A DNA stretch of 64,000 nucleotides from a virus. This document shows positions 11,958-31,315 of the stretch, piece after piece. The position numbers and the translations under genes were made by a program. The stretch covers positions 62,001 to 126,000 of IMG/VR virus record IMGVR_UViG_3300032224_001676. One strand, 5' to 3'. The notes beneath the pieces were generated by a model. It saw nothing but the letters and a program-made list of their open reading frames with translations. It was not told the DNA's origin and did not search any database. The stretch's first letter is position 1; every line of letters starts with the position of its first letter.

Positions 11958-14408
11958 TTAAGCCATGTTAGTATTATACATAACATTATTAGTTGTATTT
12001 ACAGCATTTGTAACTGTTCGGTTTTGGCCTATTTTTTCACCATCTAATTCTACCGATACATTCATTGATCTAATAGCTGCTACTACACTATCAAATTTAG
12101 CATTAAATGAGTCTATTAATTGTTTATTACTAACACCTCCTTCAGATGCAGCATTAACTTTATTTAAAGGTGTTATAGTAGCGCCTGGCCTTTCGGTTCT
12201 AATTTCAGGTCCATTTTCTCCTACCATCACTGCTCCTGCTCCTACAACTGTTCCTCCACTTGCTAAACCAGGTGTTGGTTTTGAGGTATTTGAAGATTTA
12301 AATGTATTTTTGATAGATTCAATATTTTGGCCTGATGCTGTATTTTTAAATTCGGTTCCCATTAAAGACTGAACTCCGGATACTATCCAGTGAAGAGGAT
12401 CAGCTAAAGCAACGATATTTAACAATAATTTAAGTAATTGTCCTACAAATCCTACTATAGGTCCTACAACTTTAAGAATACCAGCAAACGCGTCTACTAT
12501 AGGCATAAGTGATTCCATTACTGATACTAAAATTTCTTTAAATTTTTCAGTTGTGTCATTCCATCTTTCTTGAGCTGATTGAGATTGGAATTGTTGTGCT
12601 AATTTTTCATCACCTAATTTTTTTATAGCTCCTTCGACACCATATTGCTTAACTAATTCATCATATTTCTTTTTAGCTTCTTCAGTATTCTTTGCTCCTA
12701 CATTTTTTAAAGCTTCTTGGTTCATCAACATTTCAGCCATTTCATCTTTTTGCATACCCATTGATTTGGCTATCGCATCTTGTTGAAGACGATTCATGTT
12801 TTGGAATTTAGAAGCTGTTATATTTTGAGCTGCTAATTCTCTAGCAAACCCAACCATATCATTATTTAAGTATGCTAATCTAGCACCCTCTAAATTTAAT
12901 TGTTCGCCTGTTAACAATTGAGCTTCTAATTCGGCAGATATTGAGTCTTCGAATTGTAATAATGATTCTCCGGCTTTTTCTAATTTATCTAAAGATGTAC
13001 CTAATTTAGCAGCTTCGTACCCCGCTTTCATAAATTCTTTAGGCATATTAGCGTAAGTAAGAAGTAATGTTTTTGAAGATTTCATTAAATCCTCAAATAA
13101 TTTTTTCTCATTAATAGCTGTGTCATTTTGCATATTTAAAGCTACAGCTTGGCCTTGCATTAATGCTAAATTTTCAGATATATCTCCTTTAGTAGCTAGA
13201 TTAATTCTAGAAAACTCATCCATAGCTTCCGCTGAGTATTTAGCTTGGTGGGTTATTTGAGCGTAATCGACATTCATTTCGGCAGATAACATAGCATTAG
13301 TACCTAATACTTTATTTATAGCCATGTTAGCTTCTTGAATTTTCTTAGTACTAACAGAGGTAGCCATTGATAGATTAGCTTGAGTATTCATCTCATCACT
13401 AAGACGAGCTGCTTCAGCGTAGCTAATACCAAATTCTCCAGCCATATCACCTATGGCTTTATCAACTTCCTTAAATGTTTTTTTAAGTTCTTCTATTACT
13501 TCTCCAATTTTCTCAATAGCCATCGCTAAAAGCATACCCTCAGGTCCTGCGGCTGATAGCATTGAGGACATTCCTCCGCCACCTCCGCCGCCTCCCATCA
13601 TTCCACCAATTCCTCCACCTCCGCCTCCTGGGGGTGGGGGTGGTGTACCAGCACCACCTGGAGGGGTAAATGCTGATCCTTTATATGAATTAGAACCCGC
13701 TAGTCGTTTGGTTATAGCTTGACCTATTTCTCCTTTTCCAAATAAGGCACTTAATGCTTTAAATTTACCTTCAAAAGCTCTGGTTCCTTTAGCAGCGTTA
13801 TTTAATTCACCATCTATATCACCAATAAGTTCTTTTGACTCTTTTTCTTGATCAAGAAGAATTTTATTTTGAGTTTCGATATCTTTTTTAGTAGCTAAAA
13901 TTTCTTGATATCGTTTTCTTTCTTCACCTGCAGTTTGGTTAAATTTTCTTCCGTTAAGGATACCTTTTAGTTCACTATCTAATCCTTGGGCTCTAAGTTG
14001 ATTTAATCTTAATGAATCAGTTATACGTTGCTTATGTAAAGCCGCTTGTTTTTGAAGTTCTTTAATTTCTTGTCCGGAAAGATCAATATCTCCTTTTTTA
14101 AATTTAATAAGATCTCTAGCTATGTCAGTTAATCCACGATATGCTTTAGATGTTTCTTTAATAGCATTTGGTCCTTTTTTTAACTCGGACATAGCGTCAC
14201 GAAGGCCACTTAATGAATCACTTATTGACTCATTAAATTTATCATACTCTCTAGTAATATCTTTAAGACCAGCTGTTAATATAGCTATAATTTCTTCTAC
14301 TTTATTAGTATTGAAATTTCTAGCATTAAATGGGTTCTTTTTCCCTAAAGCATCATACTTTTCTTCTATCTGTTTTAACAGTTCGTCTATTTCTTTCTTA
14401 CCAGCCAT
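11958..14408 (-). CDS. Tail tape measure protein
   Basis: The 816-aa protein is mostly helical. It opens with coiled-coil-like charged helices (about 1-240) and has a Pro/Gly-rich low-complexity stretch (about 245-290). It ends with hydrophobic helices around 640-680 (VVGPIVGFVGQLLKLLLNIV) and the signature C-terminal VMVGENGPEIRTERPGATI. That GENGPEI..tPGG.. motif is characteristic of phage tape measure proteins. Tape measures set tail length and occupy the tail lumen; their hydrophobic segments may enter the host membrane on ejection. The gene lies directly downstream of the tail assembly chaperone pair, the conserved order in long-tailed phages. Its length suggests a tail near 120 nm by the usual 1.5 angstrom per residue, if all of it is helical. 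Confidence 0.85.
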   Translation of the reverse strand: MAGKKEIDELLKQIEEKYDALGKKNPFNARNFNTNKVEEIIAILTAGLKDITREYDKFNESISDSLSGLRDAMSELKKGPNAIKETSKAYRGLTDIARDLIKFKKGDIDLSGQEIKELQKQAALHKQRITDSLRLNQLRAQGLDSELKGILNGRKFNQTAGEERKRYQEILATKKDIETQNKILLDQEKESKELIGDIDGELNNAAKGTRAFEGKFKALSALFGKGEIGQAITKRLAGSNSYKGSAFTPPGGAGTPPPPPGGGGGGIGGMMGGGGGGGGMSSMLSAAGPEGMLLAMAIEKIGEVIEELKKTFKEVDKAIGDMAGEFGISYAEAARLSDEMNTQANLSMATSVSTKKIQEANMAINKVLGTNAMLSAEMNVDYAQITHQAKYSAEAMDEFSRINLATKGDISENLALMQGQAVALNMQNDTAINEKKLFEDLMKSSKTLLLTYANMPKEFMKAGYEAAKLGTSLDKLEKAGESLLQFEDSISAELEAQLLTGEQLNLEGARLAYLNNDMVGFARELAAQNITASKFQNMNRLQQDAIAKSMGMQKDEMAEMLMNQEALKNVGAKNTEEAKKKYDELVKQYGVEGAIKKLGDEKLAQQFQSQSAQERWNDTTEKFKEILVSVMESLMPIVDAFAGILKVVGPIVGFVGQLLKLLLNIVALADPLHWIVSGVQSLMGTEFKNTASGQNIESIKNTFKSSNTSKPTPGLASGGTVVGAGAVMVGENGPEIRTERPGATITPLNKVNAASEGGVSNKQLIDSFNAKFDSVVAAIRSMNVSVELDGEKIGQNRTVTNAVNTTNNVMYNTNMA

Positions 14409-14429: not shown

Positions 14430-14445
14430 TTTAATTCTTAAATTT

Positions 14446-14760
14446 TTATTTATAACTTGGGGCTTTTTGAGGAGCAATTGGTTTAGGTATGCTATTTTTA
14501 TCAACTAGAATATTACCCTGAGAGTCCATTACTGTTGTAGTATTGGGTTTATTTACTTTAGATACTCTATCCCGTTCATTATCATGGAATTTTTGGATTT
14601 CACTAAATGTGAAGTTTCTTAGCCAAACAGGCATATTATAGACTGTTTCCCATGAGTATCCACCATTACCATGAAATACTATTTCATGTATTTGTTTAAA
14701 AACGTTAAATCGAGCTTCAGAAGTATTACTCGTAGTCAGGCCAAAAAAAGTTAAGTCCAA
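14446..14760 (-). CDS. Tail assembly chaperone extension, probably made by ribosomal frameshifting
   Basis: This frame overlaps the end of the gp26-like gene by 35 bases. It has no ATG until a Met about 43 residues in (VYNMPVW). The only upstream initiator is a TTG with no Shine-Dalgarno sequence. The frame is open upstream to 14802. The sequence contains FKQIHEIVFHGNGGYSWETV, YNMPVWLRNFTFSEIQKF and a Pro/Lys-rich tail. It sits between the chaperone and the tape measure gene, the place of lambda gpT and its counterparts, which are expressed only as frameshift fusions. A +1 shift at the T7 run would give a 337-aa fusion; a -2 shift gives 338. An independent TTG-started protein is the alternative. 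Confidence 0.7.
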   Translation of the reverse strand: MDLTFFGLTTSNTSEARFNVFKQIHEIVFHGNGGYSWETVYNMPVWLRNFTFSEIQKFHDNERDRVSKVNKPNTTTVMDSQGNILVDKNSIPKPIAPQKAPSYK

Positions 14761-15460
14761 TTGGAATGGAAATCGATTCGTTACTTCCGAGGGGAAAAAA
14801 AGTTAGATCTACATCTGGTTGAATTGTTTTAATATGATCTCTTAATGCTCGAGAATCTCGAGCTAATAAAGCCGTATCGACATATTCTCGTATAGTTTTA
14901 GTATCTCTATCTCCGTTAACAGATGTAATAATATATTTCATGCGAGTAGATAACTCAGCTGAGATATTTGAGTTAATTTTCTTTAAACCATTGATTTCTG
15001 CTTCAATTTTCTTTTCCTCATGTCCCGTTAATAATCTGAATGTGATTGGGGTTTGAGAAGCAGGTAATATATAAGAGAATTCATTAACACCAGGTGTAAA
15101 TAATGTTTCATCGATAATTTTATTATCTAGTGTAGACAAATCTACTTCATGATGTTCGTTGTTATATTTAAATTTATAGTCCTTGCCGTATCCTAAAACA
15201 CGAGAAGCAACCATAACAGCGTTTTTATCGCCTACTATCAAGTCATCATAATTTATCTTAGATACAATGAGCGAAGTCATTAATTTATCTAAAACAATTC
15301 CTTTTTGAATATATGATTGATTAGTTAGAATATCTTCTTCTTTAGCAGTCATATACTTCATTTCTATTTTACCGCTTGAAAGTGGGTTATCTTTAGGATA
15401 CACTAAACCTTTAGAAGGCAATTCAACAATTTCTGTTGGGACGTTAATTTTATTTTCCAT
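14726..15460 (-). CDS. gp26-like baseplate/tail assembly protein (tail assembly chaperone)
   Basis: The 244-aa protein begins with VELPSKGLVYP and a KYMTAKEEDIL segment, the hallmark of the T4 gp26-type baseplate protein family and of related myovirus tail assembly chaperones. The middle contains LRDHIKTIQPDVDLTFF near the end. It is encoded immediately before the overlapping extension frame and the tape measure gene. That is the location of G/GT-type chaperones, which bind the tape measure protein and recruit tube subunits. In T4 the family is assigned to the hub assembly pathway. The family call is good; chaperone function is inferred from synteny and the frameshift signal. Confidence 0.72.
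   Translation of the reverse strand: MENKINVPTEIVELPSKGLVYPKDNPLSSGKIEMKYMTAKEEDILTNQSYIQKGIVLDKLMTSLIVSKINYDDLIVGDKNAVMVASRVLGYGKDYKFKYNNEHHEVDLSTLDNKIIDETLFTPGVNEFSYILPASQTPITFRLLTGHEEKKIEAEINGLKKINSNISAELSTRMKYIITSVNGDRDTKTIREYVDTALLARDSRALRDHIKTIQPDVDLTFFPLGSNESISIPIGLNFFWPDYE
14743..14749 (-). promoter_or_regulatory. Candidate ribosomal frameshift slip site (seven T run)
   Basis: On the coding strand the gp26-like frame reads AAC TTT TTT TGG. A +1 slip of tRNA-Phe on TTT re-pairs perfectly and moves the ribosome into the GGC CTG frame of the downstream reading frame. An identical T7 run occurs at 14795-14801 (ACT TTT TTT CCC). Both lie inside the 76-base window in which the two frames are jointly open. 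Confidence 0.6.
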
Positions 15461-15556: not shown

Positions 15557-16045
15557 TTAGTAGTTCAATACGCAATAATCCATACCTACGACCATTGAGA
15601 TATTTTGAGCTACAGATTCATTATCATAGTTGTAATCTCCAAAGTTAGCAGATTTAATAAATGCTCCTTTGATAATCCATTCACTCACTACATCACCTAC
15701 AGGACCTAGGATATCAATGGTTAAATCTTTTTTATAGAAATCTGAATACCCATCTCTACCTGTTACTGATTCGTGGTGTAGACGTACCCATTCCATTACT
15801 GCCTGAGCACCTGATGGTGTTACTGGGTCGAATAATGTTAATGTGATATCGCTCCATTTTGATTTACCTTTTACTTTACGATAAATGTTTATATGGTTTA
15901 AAACTACTTCATCAGCGGTATATTCAACACCTGTTACTCCTTTGATTATATAACTTGGAAAACCATCTACATAAAGGATAAATCTGTTCTGCTGTTTGGG
16001 TTCAAACGCTGTAAAAAATATTTCGTTTGCATCTAAAATTGCCAT
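15557..16045 (-). CDS. gp19: Tail tube protein, gp19-like
   Basis: The 162-aa protein matches the size of T4 gp19 (163 aa) and its fold signature. It shows an N-terminal FEPKQQNRFILYVDG strand, a central KVKGKSKWSDITLTLFDPV strand pair, AVMEWVRLHHE, and a C-terminal WIIKGAFIKSANFGDYNYDN. Tail tube proteins stack as hexameric rings inside the sheath. It is directly downstream of the sheath gene, as in T4, and is followed by a strong terminator, which fits a highly expressed structural gene. Confidence 0.93.
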   Translation of the reverse strand: MAILDANEIFFTAFEPKQQNRFILYVDGFPSYIIKGVTGVEYTADEVVLNHINIYRKVKGKSKWSDITLTLFDPVTPSGAQAVMEWVRLHHESVTGRDGYSDFYKKDLTIDILGPVGDVVSEWIIKGAFIKSANFGDYNYDNESVAQNISMVVGMDYCVLNY

Positions 16046-16091: not shown

Positions 16092-18167
16092 TTACGCTGG
16101 GAAAGTAGCTCCGGTTGGGGTAATGTTGAAATCTAAGTAAATAAATTCAGCGGTTTTAGTTGGTTGTAAATAAATTTGACCTACTAATTGGTTTCTATCT
16201 ACTACATCTGCTGTATTATTTGTATCATCCATCACTACTTTAAATGCATACAATCCTTGACGTTGTTGAACACTTTCTAAGTATGGGTTAACTACTGCTA
16301 AGAAGCTATTTCTTGTGGCTGCTGTGTTTTGTTCAAACACTAAGTTTTGGGCTACTTGAGAAATATAGGCTTTAAGAGCAATTAACAAGCGACGAACATT
16401 TACACGATCTAAAGCTGATGCTCTTGTTTGTAATGTCTTTTGACCGTATACTACTACTCCAGTTGAAGGGAATGTAGCGATTGGGTTTACTTTTCCATTA
16501 TATAAAGTATCACGATATGATTGTGGTAACTTTTGTTCAGCTCTTACTACTTGTAATCCACCACGATTGATACCTGCTGGTGCAAACCAAGGTTCTGATA
16601 TGTTATCTGTGTAAGCATATACTCCACCAATTACAGTTGAAGCTGGTACCCAAACCATGTCTCCGGTATCTGGGTCAAATACTAGAGTCCAAGGCCAGTA
16701 TGTTGAAGCATATGAAGTATTTCTACTTGTAGCTTGAGCTACAACTGCGTTCACATTTGATCCGTAAGGAACCATATCTACTACATAGATATTATCTCCT
16801 CTGTTTTGAGTATTTGTAATAATACTTGTTATTTGTGAAGAATGTAATGAATTAACTAAACCAGGGGTCATTAATACGTTAAATATATAATCATCTTGAT
16901 TTGATAATAAGTTAATCATATTGTCATAATCAGATCCTACTAATCCTTGTGTATTAGTTGAATTGATATCACTATAGAAATTAGCTCCACCCATTATATG
17001 ACCTAAAGCTCCACCAAATACTCCTTCAGAGTCTATTGGAAGATAATCAGCATATTGTGGTTTTGGTGAACCTGCGTTATCAAAATAATTTGGTGTTAAA
17101 TAATTAACAGCACTTACTCTTACATATTGAGATGCGTTAGAATAGAATCCAGTTAATTCAATTTGGTTAGTTGTTGGGTTATATACTTCAACCTGGTCAC
17201 CTAATACTTTAGCTACGAAGTTTCCTTGAGTTGGGTCTAATGATAAACCAGTCCAAGTTTCTAATACAATCTGATCATTAGTTGTATCATCACCTCTTCT
17301 TATTAATAAGTCGAATGTTCCAGCGTCAACGTCTGAGTTTAAGATTTCCCATCTAACGTTGTTTGAAGATCCGCTAGCTAATGCTCCGTAAGCATCAATT
17401 GGACCATCACTATTCATAATTGTACCTTCAGAAAGTGTTTCTAATACGAATGGTACTGAACCAACTCCTGTAACTCCTCCTCCAATTGTTAAAATATTTG
17501 AGAAAGTAGTTCCTGAACCTGAAAGAACAACTGTTCCATTGTATGCTGAGGATGATACTGATGAAGAGAAAATTAATCCGCCTGATCCTGAAGTTACTGT
17601 GAAATAGTCACCTAAAGTTGTATTTAATACTGCTGCTAAGTTAGTTGCAGTTGCTGCAAGATTAGATCCGCTAGCAAAATAATATAATTGTCCATCAACA
17701 TCATCAGCTGGTGTTCCTAATGTAGCGGTAGAAATATATCTATATAAACCAAAACTTCCTGTTACTCTAACTTCTCCAGATCCGATTGCTAAGTTATTAA
17801 CTATATTCACATGGCCTGTAGCAAATGCTCCTGGGAGTGATGGTTCAGAGTTAATAATTCCAGAACTAGTTGCTGGGGAATAATTACCGTTTACTACTCG
17901 AGCAACTAATAATGAAACTCCTCCATTGTTAAAATAATTGTAAGCTGCTATAGAAGTAAAGTAAGTATAAGTATCACTACCACTAATCAATACGGTTCCA
18001 AATTTATTTTTGAAATCACTATATGAACTAACTAATGTAGGTATATTTACAGGTCCTTTAACTGTAGGGCCAATAATTGCGGCTCCAGCAGCAATAGGTT
18101 GGCGAGAAACAAATGAAGAATCATTTTCTCTCGCTAATACTCCTGGGGATATTAAGGTTTCTGCCAT
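16092..18167 (-). CDS. gp18: Contractile tail sheath protein, gp18-like
   Basis: The 691-aa protein (T4 gp18 is 659 aa) begins SPGVLARENDSSF, followed by AIIGPTVKGPVNIPTLVSSY, the conserved N-terminal sheath signature. The C-terminal part carries the core-domain features WPWTLVFDPDTG, a GGVYAYTDN helix, WFAPAGINRGGL, and RRLLIALKAYISQVAQN, typical of sheath proteins. The middle, about 150-350, is a Ser/Gly/Thr-rich variable insertion forming the outer protrusion. It precedes the tail tube gene and is preceded by a late-type element at 18191. Confidence 0.95.
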   Translation of the reverse strand: MAETLISPGVLARENDSSFVSRQPIAAGAAIIGPTVKGPVNIPTLVSSYSDFKNKFGTVLISGSDTYTYFTSIAAYNYFNNGGVSLLVARVVNGNYSPATSSGIINSEPSLPGAFATGHVNIVNNLAIGSGEVRVTGSFGLYRYISTATLGTPADDVDGQLYYFASGSNLAATATNLAAVLNTTLGDYFTVTSGSGGLIFSSSVSSSAYNGTVVLSGSGTTFSNILTIGGGVTGVGSVPFVLETLSEGTIMNSDGPIDAYGALASGSSNNVRWEILNSDVDAGTFDLLIRRGDDTTNDQIVLETWTGLSLDPTQGNFVAKVLGDQVEVYNPTTNQIELTGFYSNASQYVRVSAVNYLTPNYFDNAGSPKPQYADYLPIDSEGVFGGALGHIMGGANFYSDINSTNTQGLVGSDYDNMINLLSNQDDYIFNVLMTPGLVNSLHSSQITSIITNTQNRGDNIYVVDMVPYGSNVNAVVAQATSRNTSYASTYWPWTLVFDPDTGDMVWVPASTVIGGVYAYTDNISEPWFAPAGINRGGLQVVRAEQKLPQSYRDTLYNGKVNPIATFPSTGVVVYGQKTLQTRASALDRVNVRRLLIALKAYISQVAQNLVFEQNTAATRNSFLAVVNPYLESVQQRQGLYAFKVVMDDTNNTADVVDRNQLVGQIYLQPTKTAEFIYLDFNITPTGATFPA

Positions 18168-18490: not shown

Positions 18491-20680
18491 TTAAGCTAGA
18501 GATGCAGATCTCCAAGCTCCTCCAATATAAGTGTATATGAAATATGATCCTCCATTTTTAGCGGGTACCATTTCTCCTTCTTTACCTGCCCATGTTGGTG
18601 CGGCGCTTTGAGTTGCTACTACAATAGAAGAACTTAATGTTACTTTAAAAGCATCTTTTCCACTACCTAATGCGGTTCCAAATCCTACAATAAATGGGCT
18701 AGTAGTATCTCCAGGGGCGTTAAATGTACCTACTACAGTTTGATATGATCCAGACGCTATTGTACCTCTGCCTCCAGCATGAGAATAAATACCTAACGCT
18801 ATTGTATTAGAACCTTCAGCGTGTGAGTAATTACCTATAGCTGTAGTTCCTGATCCTTCAGTGTGTGATGAGATTCCTATAGCTGTTGTTTGAGTTCCTT
18901 CTGCGTGCGAGTATGAGTTTGACGCTATTGTTTGGTATCCTTCTGTGTGTGATCCAAATCCAATTGCTTGTGTTCTATAATTTTCAGCATGTGAATAATC
19001 ACCAGAAGCTGTTACTTCAACACCTTCAGCGTGTGATGCTATTCCAATTGATAAAGTTCCTGAACCCTCAGCGTGTGAGTAAATACCTTTTGCTGTTGTA
19101 GATGTTCCTTCAGTATGGGAGTGTGAGCCTGATGCTATTGTTTGGTATCCTTCAGCGTGTGAGTACGCTCCAATTGTTGTTGTCTGTCGACCTTCAGCAT
19201 GTGACCATGATCCAGATGAGAGTGTGAAATAACCTTCAGCGTGTGATTTTTCACCTATAGATGTTGTTCCATTTCCTTCAGCATGAGAGTGCATACCTAC
19301 AGCAACAGTATAATAACCTTCAGCATGTGATGCTATTCCAATTGCTTGTCCATAGTTTCCTTCAGCGTGTGAATAGTCACCTTTAGAAGTAGAGTTTTGA
19401 CCTTCAGCATGTGAAGAATATCCTATAGCTTGTGTTCCTGTACCTTCGGTGTGTGAGAAAGAACCTGATGATTTAGTTTGGTTGCCCTCAGCATGTGAGT
19501 AATTTCCTATAGCGACTGTGATGTATCCTTCAGTGTGTGACCAATCCCCAAATGCTGTAGTTATGTATCCTTCAGTATGAGATGCTAAACCTAATGATAT
19601 ATTACCTTGTCCTTCAGTATGTGAATATGAACCTGAAGATATATTTTGTGAACCAGTAATATCATTATAAGATGATTGTAATGCTGGGGAAAGAGTGAAT
19701 GTACTTCTATTGTTTCCAGCACTATATGAAATATTTGTTATTATAGGAAGGGTAGTATAATAATGAGTATTTACAACAAATGCATATGATGGATTTTCTA
19801 AGTAAAGATATTCCATAGTGTATGGAACTGTATTACCTGAGTAGTCACCGGTTACTACTAATGTTGTTGTTGATAATGAAACTACAGGTCCTGCGTATTC
19901 CTCATATTCAATATTAGTAACTGAGGATGGGGTGATAGTGCCTGTTCCTATAATAAATGAAACACCTTCAACATGAGAATTAAATCCTTTTGATGTGGTA
20001 AAATAACCTTCAGCATGTGAACTAACGCCTATTGCTGTTGAATATTGACCTTCAGCATGAGATCCATTTGACGCTGCTTTTGTTTGTGAACCTTCAGCAT
20101 GTGAGAATTGACCAACTGCTACAGTGTTATTTCCTTCAGCGTGTGAGTATTGACCTCCAGCAGTGCTAATATTACCTTCAGCATGTGAATATTGTCCTTG
20201 AGATACATTTGAATATCCTTCAGCGTGTGAATATGAACCAGATGTATTATTATTTAATCCTTGAGATAAACTTCCTGTAATTTGAGCGTTACCATTATGG
20301 GTTCCATCCCATTCTCCTGTCACTCCTGTTAATCCACTACCGTTTCCTATAAATGAACCTGTAAAAGACCCAGTGGCAATTCCACCAAATGATCCAGTTA
20401 TGTTTCCTGCTCCTGTAAATGAACCTGTAAATGAACCTGTAAATGTTCCTACAGACCCAGTCATATTTAATCCTATTACTGAGGTTACTTGTGTAAAATC
20501 TACTAATGAACCCGATAGAACTAATGAACCTGATATTGAGTTCTCAGGGCCTAAAAGAGTATTTGCTAAAAAGATTAAATTGTTATCCATTTCACTAATG
20601 GATATTTTTGCTCCTTTTAAATATACATCATTAGGTAAATTTCCTGATATTGAGCCTTGTCTTAATGTTAATATAGCCAT
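18491..20680 (-). CDS. Repeat-rich tail fibre with about 28 SHAEG (YadA-head-like) repeats
   Basis: The 729-aa protein has a N-terminal fibre segment rich in FTGSFTG repeats (about 65-125). A tandem array of 14-residue units, core SHAEG followed by xxTxAxGxx, fills about 145-680. I count about 28 units, interrupted after the seventh by a roughly 90-residue non-repeat insert. The C-terminal about 50 residues (VGFGTALGSGKDAFKV...) differ and end in an aromatic YIGGAWRSASLA. The repeats resemble the left-handed beta-roll of trimeric autotransporter (YadA/Hia) heads, which occur in phage fibres. A host-binding fibre is the likely role. A shorter paralogue is at 29642-31315. Confidence 0.8.
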   Translation of the reverse strand: MAILTLRQGSISGNLPNDVYLKGAKISISEMDNNLIFLANTLLGPENSISGSLVLSGSLVDFTQVTSVIGLNMTGSVGTFTGSFTGSFTGAGNITGSFGGIATGSFTGSFIGNGSGLTGVTGEWDGTHNGNAQITGSLSQGLNNNTSGSYSHAEGYSNVSQGQYSHAEGNISTAGGQYSHAEGNNTVAVGQFSHAEGSQTKAASNGSHAEGQYSTAIGVSSHAEGYFTTSKGFNSHVEGVSFIIGTGTITPSSVTNIEYEEYAGPVVSLSTTTLVVTGDYSGNTVPYTMEYLYLENPSYAFVVNTHYYTTLPIITNISYSAGNNRSTFTLSPALQSSYNDITGSQNISSGSYSHTEGQGNISLGLASHTEGYITTAFGDWSHTEGYITVAIGNYSHAEGNQTKSSGSFSHTEGTGTQAIGYSSHAEGQNSTSKGDYSHAEGNYGQAIGIASHAEGYYTVAVGMHSHAEGNGTTSIGEKSHAEGYFTLSSGSWSHAEGRQTTTIGAYSHAEGYQTIASGSHSHTEGTSTTAKGIYSHAEGSGTLSIGIASHAEGVEVTASGDYSHAENYRTQAIGFGSHTEGYQTIASNSYSHAEGTQTTAIGISSHTEGSGTTAIGNYSHAEGSNTIALGIYSHAGGRGTIASGSYQTVVGTFNAPGDTTSPFIVGFGTALGSGKDAFKVTLSSSIVVATQSAAPTWAGKEGEMVPAKNGGSYFIYTYIGGAWRSASLA
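18770..20236 (-). repeat. DNA tandem array encoding SHAEG units (42-bp period)
   Basis: Near-identical 14-base segments such as ccttcagcgtgtga recur about every 42 bases, with the array broken by the insert near 19650-19960. Conservation at DNA level beyond the codons needed could allow slippage or recombination that changes fibre length. Confidence 0.8.
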
Positions 20681-29641: not shown

Positions 29642-31315
29642 TTAAAAACCTGAAAATAGTGTGTTTACTTTTGCTAATGCTACAACTTGGCCTTGGATAT
29701 TAGATACACTACTACCTCCACCTCCACCATTCATAGCATAAGATGCTGTTAAAGCGTAAGATGCAGAACCTTGTAGTGAACCAGTAATACTACCATTTAC
29801 TCTTAATGAACCTGTAATTTGAAATTGAGATCCTGATGCAAAAACTAGGTTTGATCTAGCTGAAGTGCTAGTACCATTTCCTATTATAAAAGCGTTTTGA
29901 GCTGATGAGGATTGGTTGAGTAAACCTTGAACATGTTGGCCATCACCGTTTGCTATTGTATAGTACCCTTCAGCGTGTGAATATTGTCCGTTTGCTGTTG
30001 TATATAATCCTTCAGCATGTGAGTATGGACCATTTGTTATTGTGAGATATCCTTCAGCATGTGAATTTTGTGCATTTGCTGTTGTATAATATCCTTCAGC
30101 ATGAGAACCTATTCCTGATACTGCTGTTGTTGTTGTGAGCATTCCTTCAGCGTGTGAAGCATCACCGTATGCTGTTCCTCCAGGAACAATTACTTCACCA
30201 TCACTATCATAAGTATATCCTCCTTCTGCGTGGGAGCCTAATCCTTGAGCTAATGTGGAAACTCCTTCAGCATGTGAGTAATATCCATTTGCCACAGTAA
30301 CATAACCTTCAGCATGTGAAGCAAAACCACCTACTATTGTGAAATTTCCTTCAGCATGTGAATACTGCCCATTTGCTGTTGTATATACTCCTTCAGTATG
30401 AGAAGTAAAACCATTTGCTATTGTATAGTATCCTTCAGCATGTGAGTAGTATCCATTTGTTGTTGTAGTACTACCAACTCCCTCAGCATGTGAATAATCT
30501 CCTCTTGCTATTGTACTGTTTCCTTCAGTGTGTGAATATTGTCCGTTTGCTATTGTGAAATATCCTTCAGCATGTGAATATGATCCTGATGCTTTATTTA
30601 ATTGCCCTTCAGCATGTGAATAAATTCCTGATGCTGTATTTTGGAATCCTTGAACATGAGAAAATAAACCTGATGCAAGTGATGCTGAGGCTTGATTAAA
30701 TATTCCTTGAATTGAAGTAGAACCAGATACATTTAATGAACCAGTTATAATATTTGTTCCAATTATAGTTTTACTTCCAGAAATAAATACGGAACCTGTA
30801 ATTGTTTTAGTTCCTATTAAGGTATTTGAACCTGTTATTATAAGCGACCCTGATATAATTTCATTTCCTATAAATGTGTTTGAACCTGTTGTGGCAAAAG
30901 ATCCTGTTTGAGTATTAGTTACAAATGAACTTGTAGCACTATTTAAAACATAGTTTGGAGCTAAAGACGCAGTAGCAGCATAAGAAGCACTTAATACTGT
31001 TCCTACAATAGCAGAAGCAGTTACATATGACGCGGTTTGAGCATAAGATGCTGTTCCTTGTAATGAACCTGTAAACCCAAGAGTAGAAGTTGTAGAACCA
31101 GTTATTATTAATGATCCTGTTATAATTGCAGAACCGGTATATGGAAATGCTGCCCCACTTCCTCCTCCAGAACCTGTAAATTCTTTTACAATGTTACCTG
31201 ATCCACTACCATAAAATAGTTTTCCATCTTTAGTATTGATGGCTAATTCACCCTGCTGTAATGAAGAGGGAATCACTCCTGATCCGGTACTATTTTTTAT
31301 TATTATTGTAGCCAT
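29642..31315 (-). CDS. Second SHAEG-repeat tail fibre
   Basis: The 557-aa protein has a N-terminal fibre segment with a phage-fibre-like start (GVIPSSLQQGELAINTKDGK at about 14-33, resembling the N-terminal domain of T4-like hinge or tail fibres). Next come SLIITGS repeats (about 60-200), then about 17 SHAEG repeats (about 220-460) and a TASYALTASYAMN segment with a Gly-rich end. It is a shorter paralogue of the 18491-20680 fibre, with a different N-terminal anchor. The two may form different fibres on the same virion. Confidence 0.78.
   Translation of the reverse strand: MATIIIKNSTGSGVIPSSLQQGELAINTKDGKLFYGSGSGNIVKEFTGSGGGSGAAFPYTGSAIITGSLIITGSTTSTLGFTGSLQGTASYAQTASYVTASAIVGTVLSASYAATASLAPNYVLNSATSSFVTNTQTGSFATTGSNTFIGNEIISGSLIITGSNTLIGTKTITGSVFISGSKTIIGTNIITGSLNVSGSTSIQGIFNQASASLASGLFSHVQGFQNTASGIYSHAEGQLNKASGSYSHAEGYFTIANGQYSHTEGNSTIARGDYSHAEGVGSTTTTNGYYSHAEGYYTIANGFTSHTEGVYTTANGQYSHAEGNFTIVGGFASHAEGYVTVANGYYSHAEGVSTLAQGLGSHAEGGYTYDSDGEVIVPGGTAYGDASHAEGMLTTTTAVSGIGSHAEGYYTTANAQNSHAEGYLTITNGPYSHAEGLYTTANGQYSHAEGYYTIANGDGQHVQGLLNQSSSAQNAFIIGNGTSTSARSNLVFASGSQFQITGSLRVNGSITGSLQGSASYALTASYAMNGGGGGSSVSNIQGQVVALAKVNTLFSGF
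29935..30660 (-). repeat. DNA tandem array encoding SHAEG units, second copy
   Basis: About 17 units with a 42-base period and recurrent ccttcagcatgtga segments. Similarity to the first array makes recombination between the two fibre genes possible. Confidence 0.75.

Follow-up and report, generated by a model that had tools for sequence, protein, structure and literature searches.

In phage lambda, the short tail assembly chaperone G and its C-terminally extended form GT are made from overlapping ORFs located between the tail tube and tape measure genes; the downstream ORF lies in another frame, has no start codon, and is entered by re-pairing at a conserved slippery site through a -1 shift. 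These G/GT frameshifts, their role, the exception represented by T4, and a likely +1 shift in the tail chaperone of the archaeal myovirus HSTV-2 are reviewed in PMC5009743. T4 has the same short/long relation between gp26 and gp51, except that these are two full genes with no frameshift. A two-gene form was described earlier in phage 0305phi8-36 (PMC2147016), and, as cited in PMC10885494 and PMC12846349, the T4-like two-gene form is credited to Vladimirov, Gautam and Davidson (2022, Virology 566:9), to whom PMC12846349 also credits poly-T -1 signals in T4-like chaperone genes. A +1 shift occurs in RF2 at CUU UGA, with a stop codon in the A site and a Shine-Dalgarno (SD) sequence three bases upstream; the slipperiest +1 codons in RF2 are CUU, followed by CCC and UUU (PMC10885494).

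We analyzed a window of 64,000 nucleotides (the whole stretch of DNA under study) that lies in a 127,786-base virus record, IMG/VR IMGVR_UViG_3300032224_001676. In this window, a tail assembly chaperone gene related to T4 gp26 is probably expressed as a G/GT-type fusion by a programmed +1 ribosomal frameshift at AAC TTT TTT TGG, a reading to which we assign a probability of about 0.88. The features of the locus are listed in Table 1. With lambda, the locus shares its position between tube and tape measure, the overlapping ORFs, a short and a predicted C-terminally extended form, a conserved slippery site, a startless downstream ORF in another frame and, as we read it, re-pairing at the site. 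It differs in the direction of the shift (+1, exceptions to -1 being known in the literature) and in the site itself, which is YTT-Y and not a -1 heptamer; no sequence similarity to lambda has been demonstrated. It resembles RF2 in forward re-pairing and in a P-site codon, CUU or UUU, that has U as the next base; here, however, the A site holds the sense codon UGG and there is no such SD sequence. HSTV-2 is comparable in the likely direction of its shift. A prior reading of the window, made from the sequence alone, had considered +1 unusual for tail chaperones, which is right in that the shift is usually -1, yet HSTV-2 provides a reported precedent (PMC5009743).

Table 1. Features of the chaperone locus and neighboring tail genes (window positions)
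Feature	Position	Strand	Basis
G-type (short) tail assembly chaperone ORF, T4 gp26-like, 244 aa	14726..15460	-	phrog_150, E=1.4e-8
Whole open +1 frame	14443..14802	-	overlaps the G ORF at 14726-14802
Putative T domain, 98 aa + stop, read only after a +1 shift; begins GLTTSNTSEARFNVFKQIHEIVFHGNGGYSWETVYNMPVWLRNF...	14446..14742	-	relatives keep a +1 ORF here; by profile, homologous to cyanophage gp51 (-1 frame); members weakly match phrog_634 and tail assembly chaperone families
Candidate shift site AAC TTT TTT TGG	14741..14752	-	kept across 247 related loci; information profile
Tape measure-type protein, 816 aa, directly downstream	11958..14408	-	position and size
Tail tube protein (T4 gp19-like), upstream neighbor	15557..16045	-	phrog_4542, E=2.7e-26
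Tail sheath protein, upstream	16092..18167	-	phrog_23, E=3.5e-76

The window and phage immuto both carry sheath, tube, G, T, and tape measure in this order, and the immuto gene at the position of our tape measure-type ORF is annotated as tail tape measure. The sequence-only reading had described a gp26-like frame and a downstream frame jointly open for 76 bases, two seven-T runs, and a downstream frame lacking an ATG in its first 40 codons and located just before the tape measure gene. All three observations stand. The joint opening measures 77 nt, the runs lie exactly at 14795-14801 and 14743-14749, no ATG occurs in the window's +1 frame for 36 codons after the slip site, and the gap between the stop of that frame and the tape measure ORF is 37 nt. 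Since off frames of the window's genes meet stops at a rate of 0.106 per codon, 119 open +1 codons would be expected by chance with a probability of about 1.6e-6. The G ORF ends in ...IPIGLNFFWPDYE followed by its stop codon, the last residues being FFWPDYE. The tetramer AACT of the shift site occurs also at codon 163. No tRNA genes were found in the window.

Under the mechanism we propose, two forms of one tail assembly chaperone would come from the locus: G, the short one (244 aa), and GT, the long one (about 337 aa). The majority of ribosomes would terminate at the TAA at 14728-14726 and release G. A fraction would slip +1 when the P site is occupied by the second Phe codon, TTT (14746-14744), with TGG (Trp) waiting in the A site; tRNA-Phe would re-pair with TTT at 14745-14743, and these ribosomes would then read GGC (14742-14740), CTG, ACT and on through the T domain. 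By analogy to lambda, G may coat the tape measure protein and GT may recruit tail tube subunits. The slippage itself, its efficiency, and the functions of the proteins are what we infer from the sequence.

To place the site among relatives, viral contigs were scanned with the window protein, yielding 80 loci, and matches in a phage collection comprised immuto, Mel-JY01, SP-15, RM378, GXN1, and one 484-kb uncultured phage. Additional scans with the immuto, Mel-JY01, SP-15, and S-PM2 proteins brought the total to 334 loci, including the -1 set discussed below. Among the +1-type loci (window-type, immuto, Mel-JY01, RM378, SP-15, and GXN1), the downstream domain is clearly in the +1 frame in 241/247. 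Five lack a clear frame call, contig-end loci and short ORFs among them, and one is ambiguous, carrying TTT TTT TGG together with a longer ORF in the other frame. The comparison with homologues that the sequence-only reading had proposed thus finds both the frame relation and the site recurring across hundreds of sequences. A seven-T run is a classical place for homopolymer errors in sequencing or assembly, and such an error, together with homologues fused in frame, had been named as what would overturn the frameshift. Because the frame relation is shared by 241 loci, drawn both from isolates and from independent metagenomes, this explanation is already refuted and its probability is negligible. 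A separate case is one locus (L028) whose +1 frame closes 30 codons after the slip while near-identical loci stay open, perhaps owing to a sequencing error or a mutant.

The T frame might instead be an independent gene, started at the TTG at 14758-14760 or at an inner ATG (at MPVW). This TTG is the sole start-like codon of the window's +1 frame ahead of the slip, and in the annotation of immuto an ORF of 37 aa does begin at the inner ATG. However, an ATG, GTG, or TTG ahead of the slip is absent in 71/239 loci, a start at the inner ATG would lose the conserved QIHEIVFHGKGGY half, and constraint on the +1 frame sets in exactly at the slip. In addition, 26 loci have a +1-frame stop 5-8 nt ahead of the slip codon; together with the startless loci, these rule out both the first T run and an internal start. 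We therefore regard a separate gene as very unlikely. The first run, which had been offered as a slip candidate alongside the second, was rejected as the shift site: in many homologues the open +1 frame does not include it, and it is not conserved, the upstream FF motif being encoded by TTC TTC in 8/28. Of the two candidates only the second stands, and the first is incidental. The idea that a short duplication, suggested by the likeness of DLTFFPLG and DLTFFGLT, created the overlap was rejected as well. QPDVDLTF is a conserved zero-frame motif among homologues; the second DLTFF, in contrast, sits upstream of the slip in a frame that is not translated, and its codons vary between homologues. 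For this reason DLTFFGLT is no evidence of duplication, and the resemblance is incidental.

Codons at the slip position were counted with an amino-acid anchor only, i.e., with no codon filter. The unique sites were TTT TTT TGG (148), TTT CTT TGG (28), TTT CTA TGG (4), CTT TTT TGG (3), TTT TTT TAC (3), and TTT TTT TTC (2), along with single instances of TTT TTT CAC, TTT TTT CGT, TTC TTT CGT, TTT CTT TAC, and TTT CTA TTC. Where the slip position encodes Phe, the codon is TTT in 159/159 unique sequences, compared to 79% TTT elsewhere in the same genes, which would have a probability of about 4e-17 if the sequences were independent; as they are related, this and the other codon statistics are nominal. 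Where it encodes Leu, the codon is CTT in 29 unique sequences and CTA in 5. The set behind the start and stop counts, the 79% figure, the information profile, and the SD-like counts was picked with a TTT/TTC/CTT filter, and site invariance in that set is thus partly built in. The A-site codon is TGG, TAC, CAC, CGT, or TTC across the family and is never a stop. In the information profile, the minimum ahead of the site falls on the third codon position of the zero frame; past the site it falls on the first, which is position 3 of the +1 frame. One locus (L014) illustrates the switch, its zero-frame P being replaced by V while G-L is kept in the +1 frame.

These variants also bear on two other ways of reaching the downstream frame. 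RNA polymerase slippage on the T run could produce mRNAs shorter by one base, and a run of exactly seven T in 190/247 loci (eight in 8) would suit it. Yet 43 loci have TTT CTT or TTT CTA, with no T run longer than 3 and an unchanged frame relation; because these variants interrupt the run, we consider transcriptional slippage excluded for practical purposes. A -2 ribosomal slip, as in Mu, would lead into the same frame with one more Phe, and at TTT TTT T the tRNA-Phe could re-pair two bases back as well. Elsewhere in the family this works poorly: the Streptococcus phage GXN1 site (TTC TTT CGT) would present TCT as its -2 codon, and the codons two back pair poorly in the TTT CTA variants, whereas P-site tRNA can re-pair forward in every variant, by TTT-T, CTT-T, or TTT-C. 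In the CTA variants (L304, L315, L327, L328, and L085; TTT CTA TGG or TTC), CTA itself cannot re-pair at +1, and the slip there would therefore have to fall one codon earlier, on TTT-C. The recurrent alternative CTT is, moreover, the +1 codon of RF2. Of the two directions left open by the sequence-only reading, +1 is thus supported, and -2 is disfavored by several site variants and, in our estimation, unlikely. The two predict different products, a +1 slip giving the junction peptide ...NFFGLTTSNTSEAR with no additional Phe and a -2 slip giving FFF-GLT. The +1 shift at AAC TTT TTT TGG is the reading best supported by the conserved site and frame relation, the constraint switch, and the homology of the fused product, through the cyanophage proteins, to T4 gp51, which is read in a single frame.

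No excess of RNA structure was detected downstream of the site (mean z -0.83 just downstream versus -0.68 and -0.81 in controls), and SD-like stimulators are not enriched at +1 sites (12/121 versus a background of 13%). Codon hunger in its simple form is unsupported, as GGC, the A-site codon after a +1 slip, is used less often in the window than TGG.

G and the T domain were folded separately with AlphaFold2, using alignments with no named-phage rows. The G model (pLDDT 93.4) found T4-like baseplate hub and hub assembly proteins, SP-15 among them, as its best named viral fold matches; its best solved-structure match, the HK97 tail chaperone 2OB9, is weak (E 1.0, prob 0.47) and serves as a lead only. 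The T domain model is predicted to be helical (pLDDT 77), and a fold search with this domain alone gave no significant match. Relatives of the T domain have weak matches to phrog_634 (gp51), the tail assembly chaperone phrog_32580, and Pfam Phage_TAC_13, as well as, for window positions 14446-14760, to DUF6760 (best E 0.0014). When G and T were used as fold queries, they matched A0A343LED6 and A0A343LED7 of the Leptospira phage LE4 (consecutive accessions; the T match is weak), possibly another split chaperone.

The phrog_150 family, in which the G ORF falls, is that of T4 gp26 and gp51, gp26 covering positions 14-235 of the profile and gp51 positions 13-280; the window protein itself gave no match to Pfam PF12322, the Pfam entry for this family. 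Where T4 has two full genes, the family described here would recode one gene by +1. A third arrangement is found in P-SSM2, S-PM2, Syn9, P-SSM4, and KVP40 (L126, L127, L128, L130, and L129), whose annotated gp51 is short and follows gp26 in the -1 frame. Across these and L131-L210, the heptamer T_TTT_TTC is invariant in 60/60 unique junctions, one codon ahead of the stop, and an SD-like motif lies 12-15 nt upstream in 43/60 (background 9%), which differs from the +1 family with its lack of SD-like enrichment. In the relevant text of Sullivan et al. 2010 (PMC3037559), the short gp51 is noted and no frameshift is named. RefSeq lists gp26 and gp51 as two separate genes.

By hhalign, the +1 fusion aligns to the cyanophage/KVP40 -1 fusion (97.3%, E 2e-11) and the latter to T4 gp51 (98.2%, E 4e-14), in both cases through the FF junction. 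Direct comparison with the T4 gp51 profile was not significant for the +1 fusion (P 0.22), nor was it for the first +1 set. Through the cyanophage fusions, the +1 long form is homologous to T4 gp51, and the cyanophage/KVP40 gp26-short gp51 is a homologous fusion at the same FF junction. In an unrooted tree of 43 proteins, the +1 loci form one group (100/99), and two changes, the least possible, explain the three arrangements. The +1 clade spans phages of Flavobacterium, Microcystis, Rhodothermus, Bacillus, and Streptococcus, and we found no report of it in the open-access library that was searched. We consider it probable that one chaperone family uses three routes at the same FF junction, namely a +1 shift, a -1 shift (cyanophages and KVP40), and gene duplication (T4), with the direction of recoding switched and the junction fixed.

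The locus would then carry a +1 version, conserved over deep divergences, of the known G/GT tail-chaperone switch, in relatives of T4 gp26 over a very wide range of phages. G/GT shifts are for the most part -1, and T4 had long stood apart from them. From the sampled sequences it can be read at which point of the family tree the change of mechanism took place, and site conservation in hundreds of relatives suggests that the two-protein output is kept while the ribosomal route changes. These sequences also offer natural sets of candidate +1 sites (UUU-U, CUU-U, and UUU-C, with sense A-site codons) for studying forward slippage in bacteria, among them the Bacteroidota, in which SD pairing is scarcely used. 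The predicted long chaperone is absent from the deposited annotations of immuto, Mel-JY01, and SP-15, which were those examined, and these may be corrected. In the RefSeq entry for immuto, gp038 (L081:6854-6964, 37 aa) is a T domain fragment beginning at the inner ATG, the real product probably being the fusion. Elsewhere on the same strand of the window, 18491-20680 and 29642-31315 each encode a long protein in which SHAEGY/SHTEGY-type repeats are numerous; both are probably tail fibers or adhesins.
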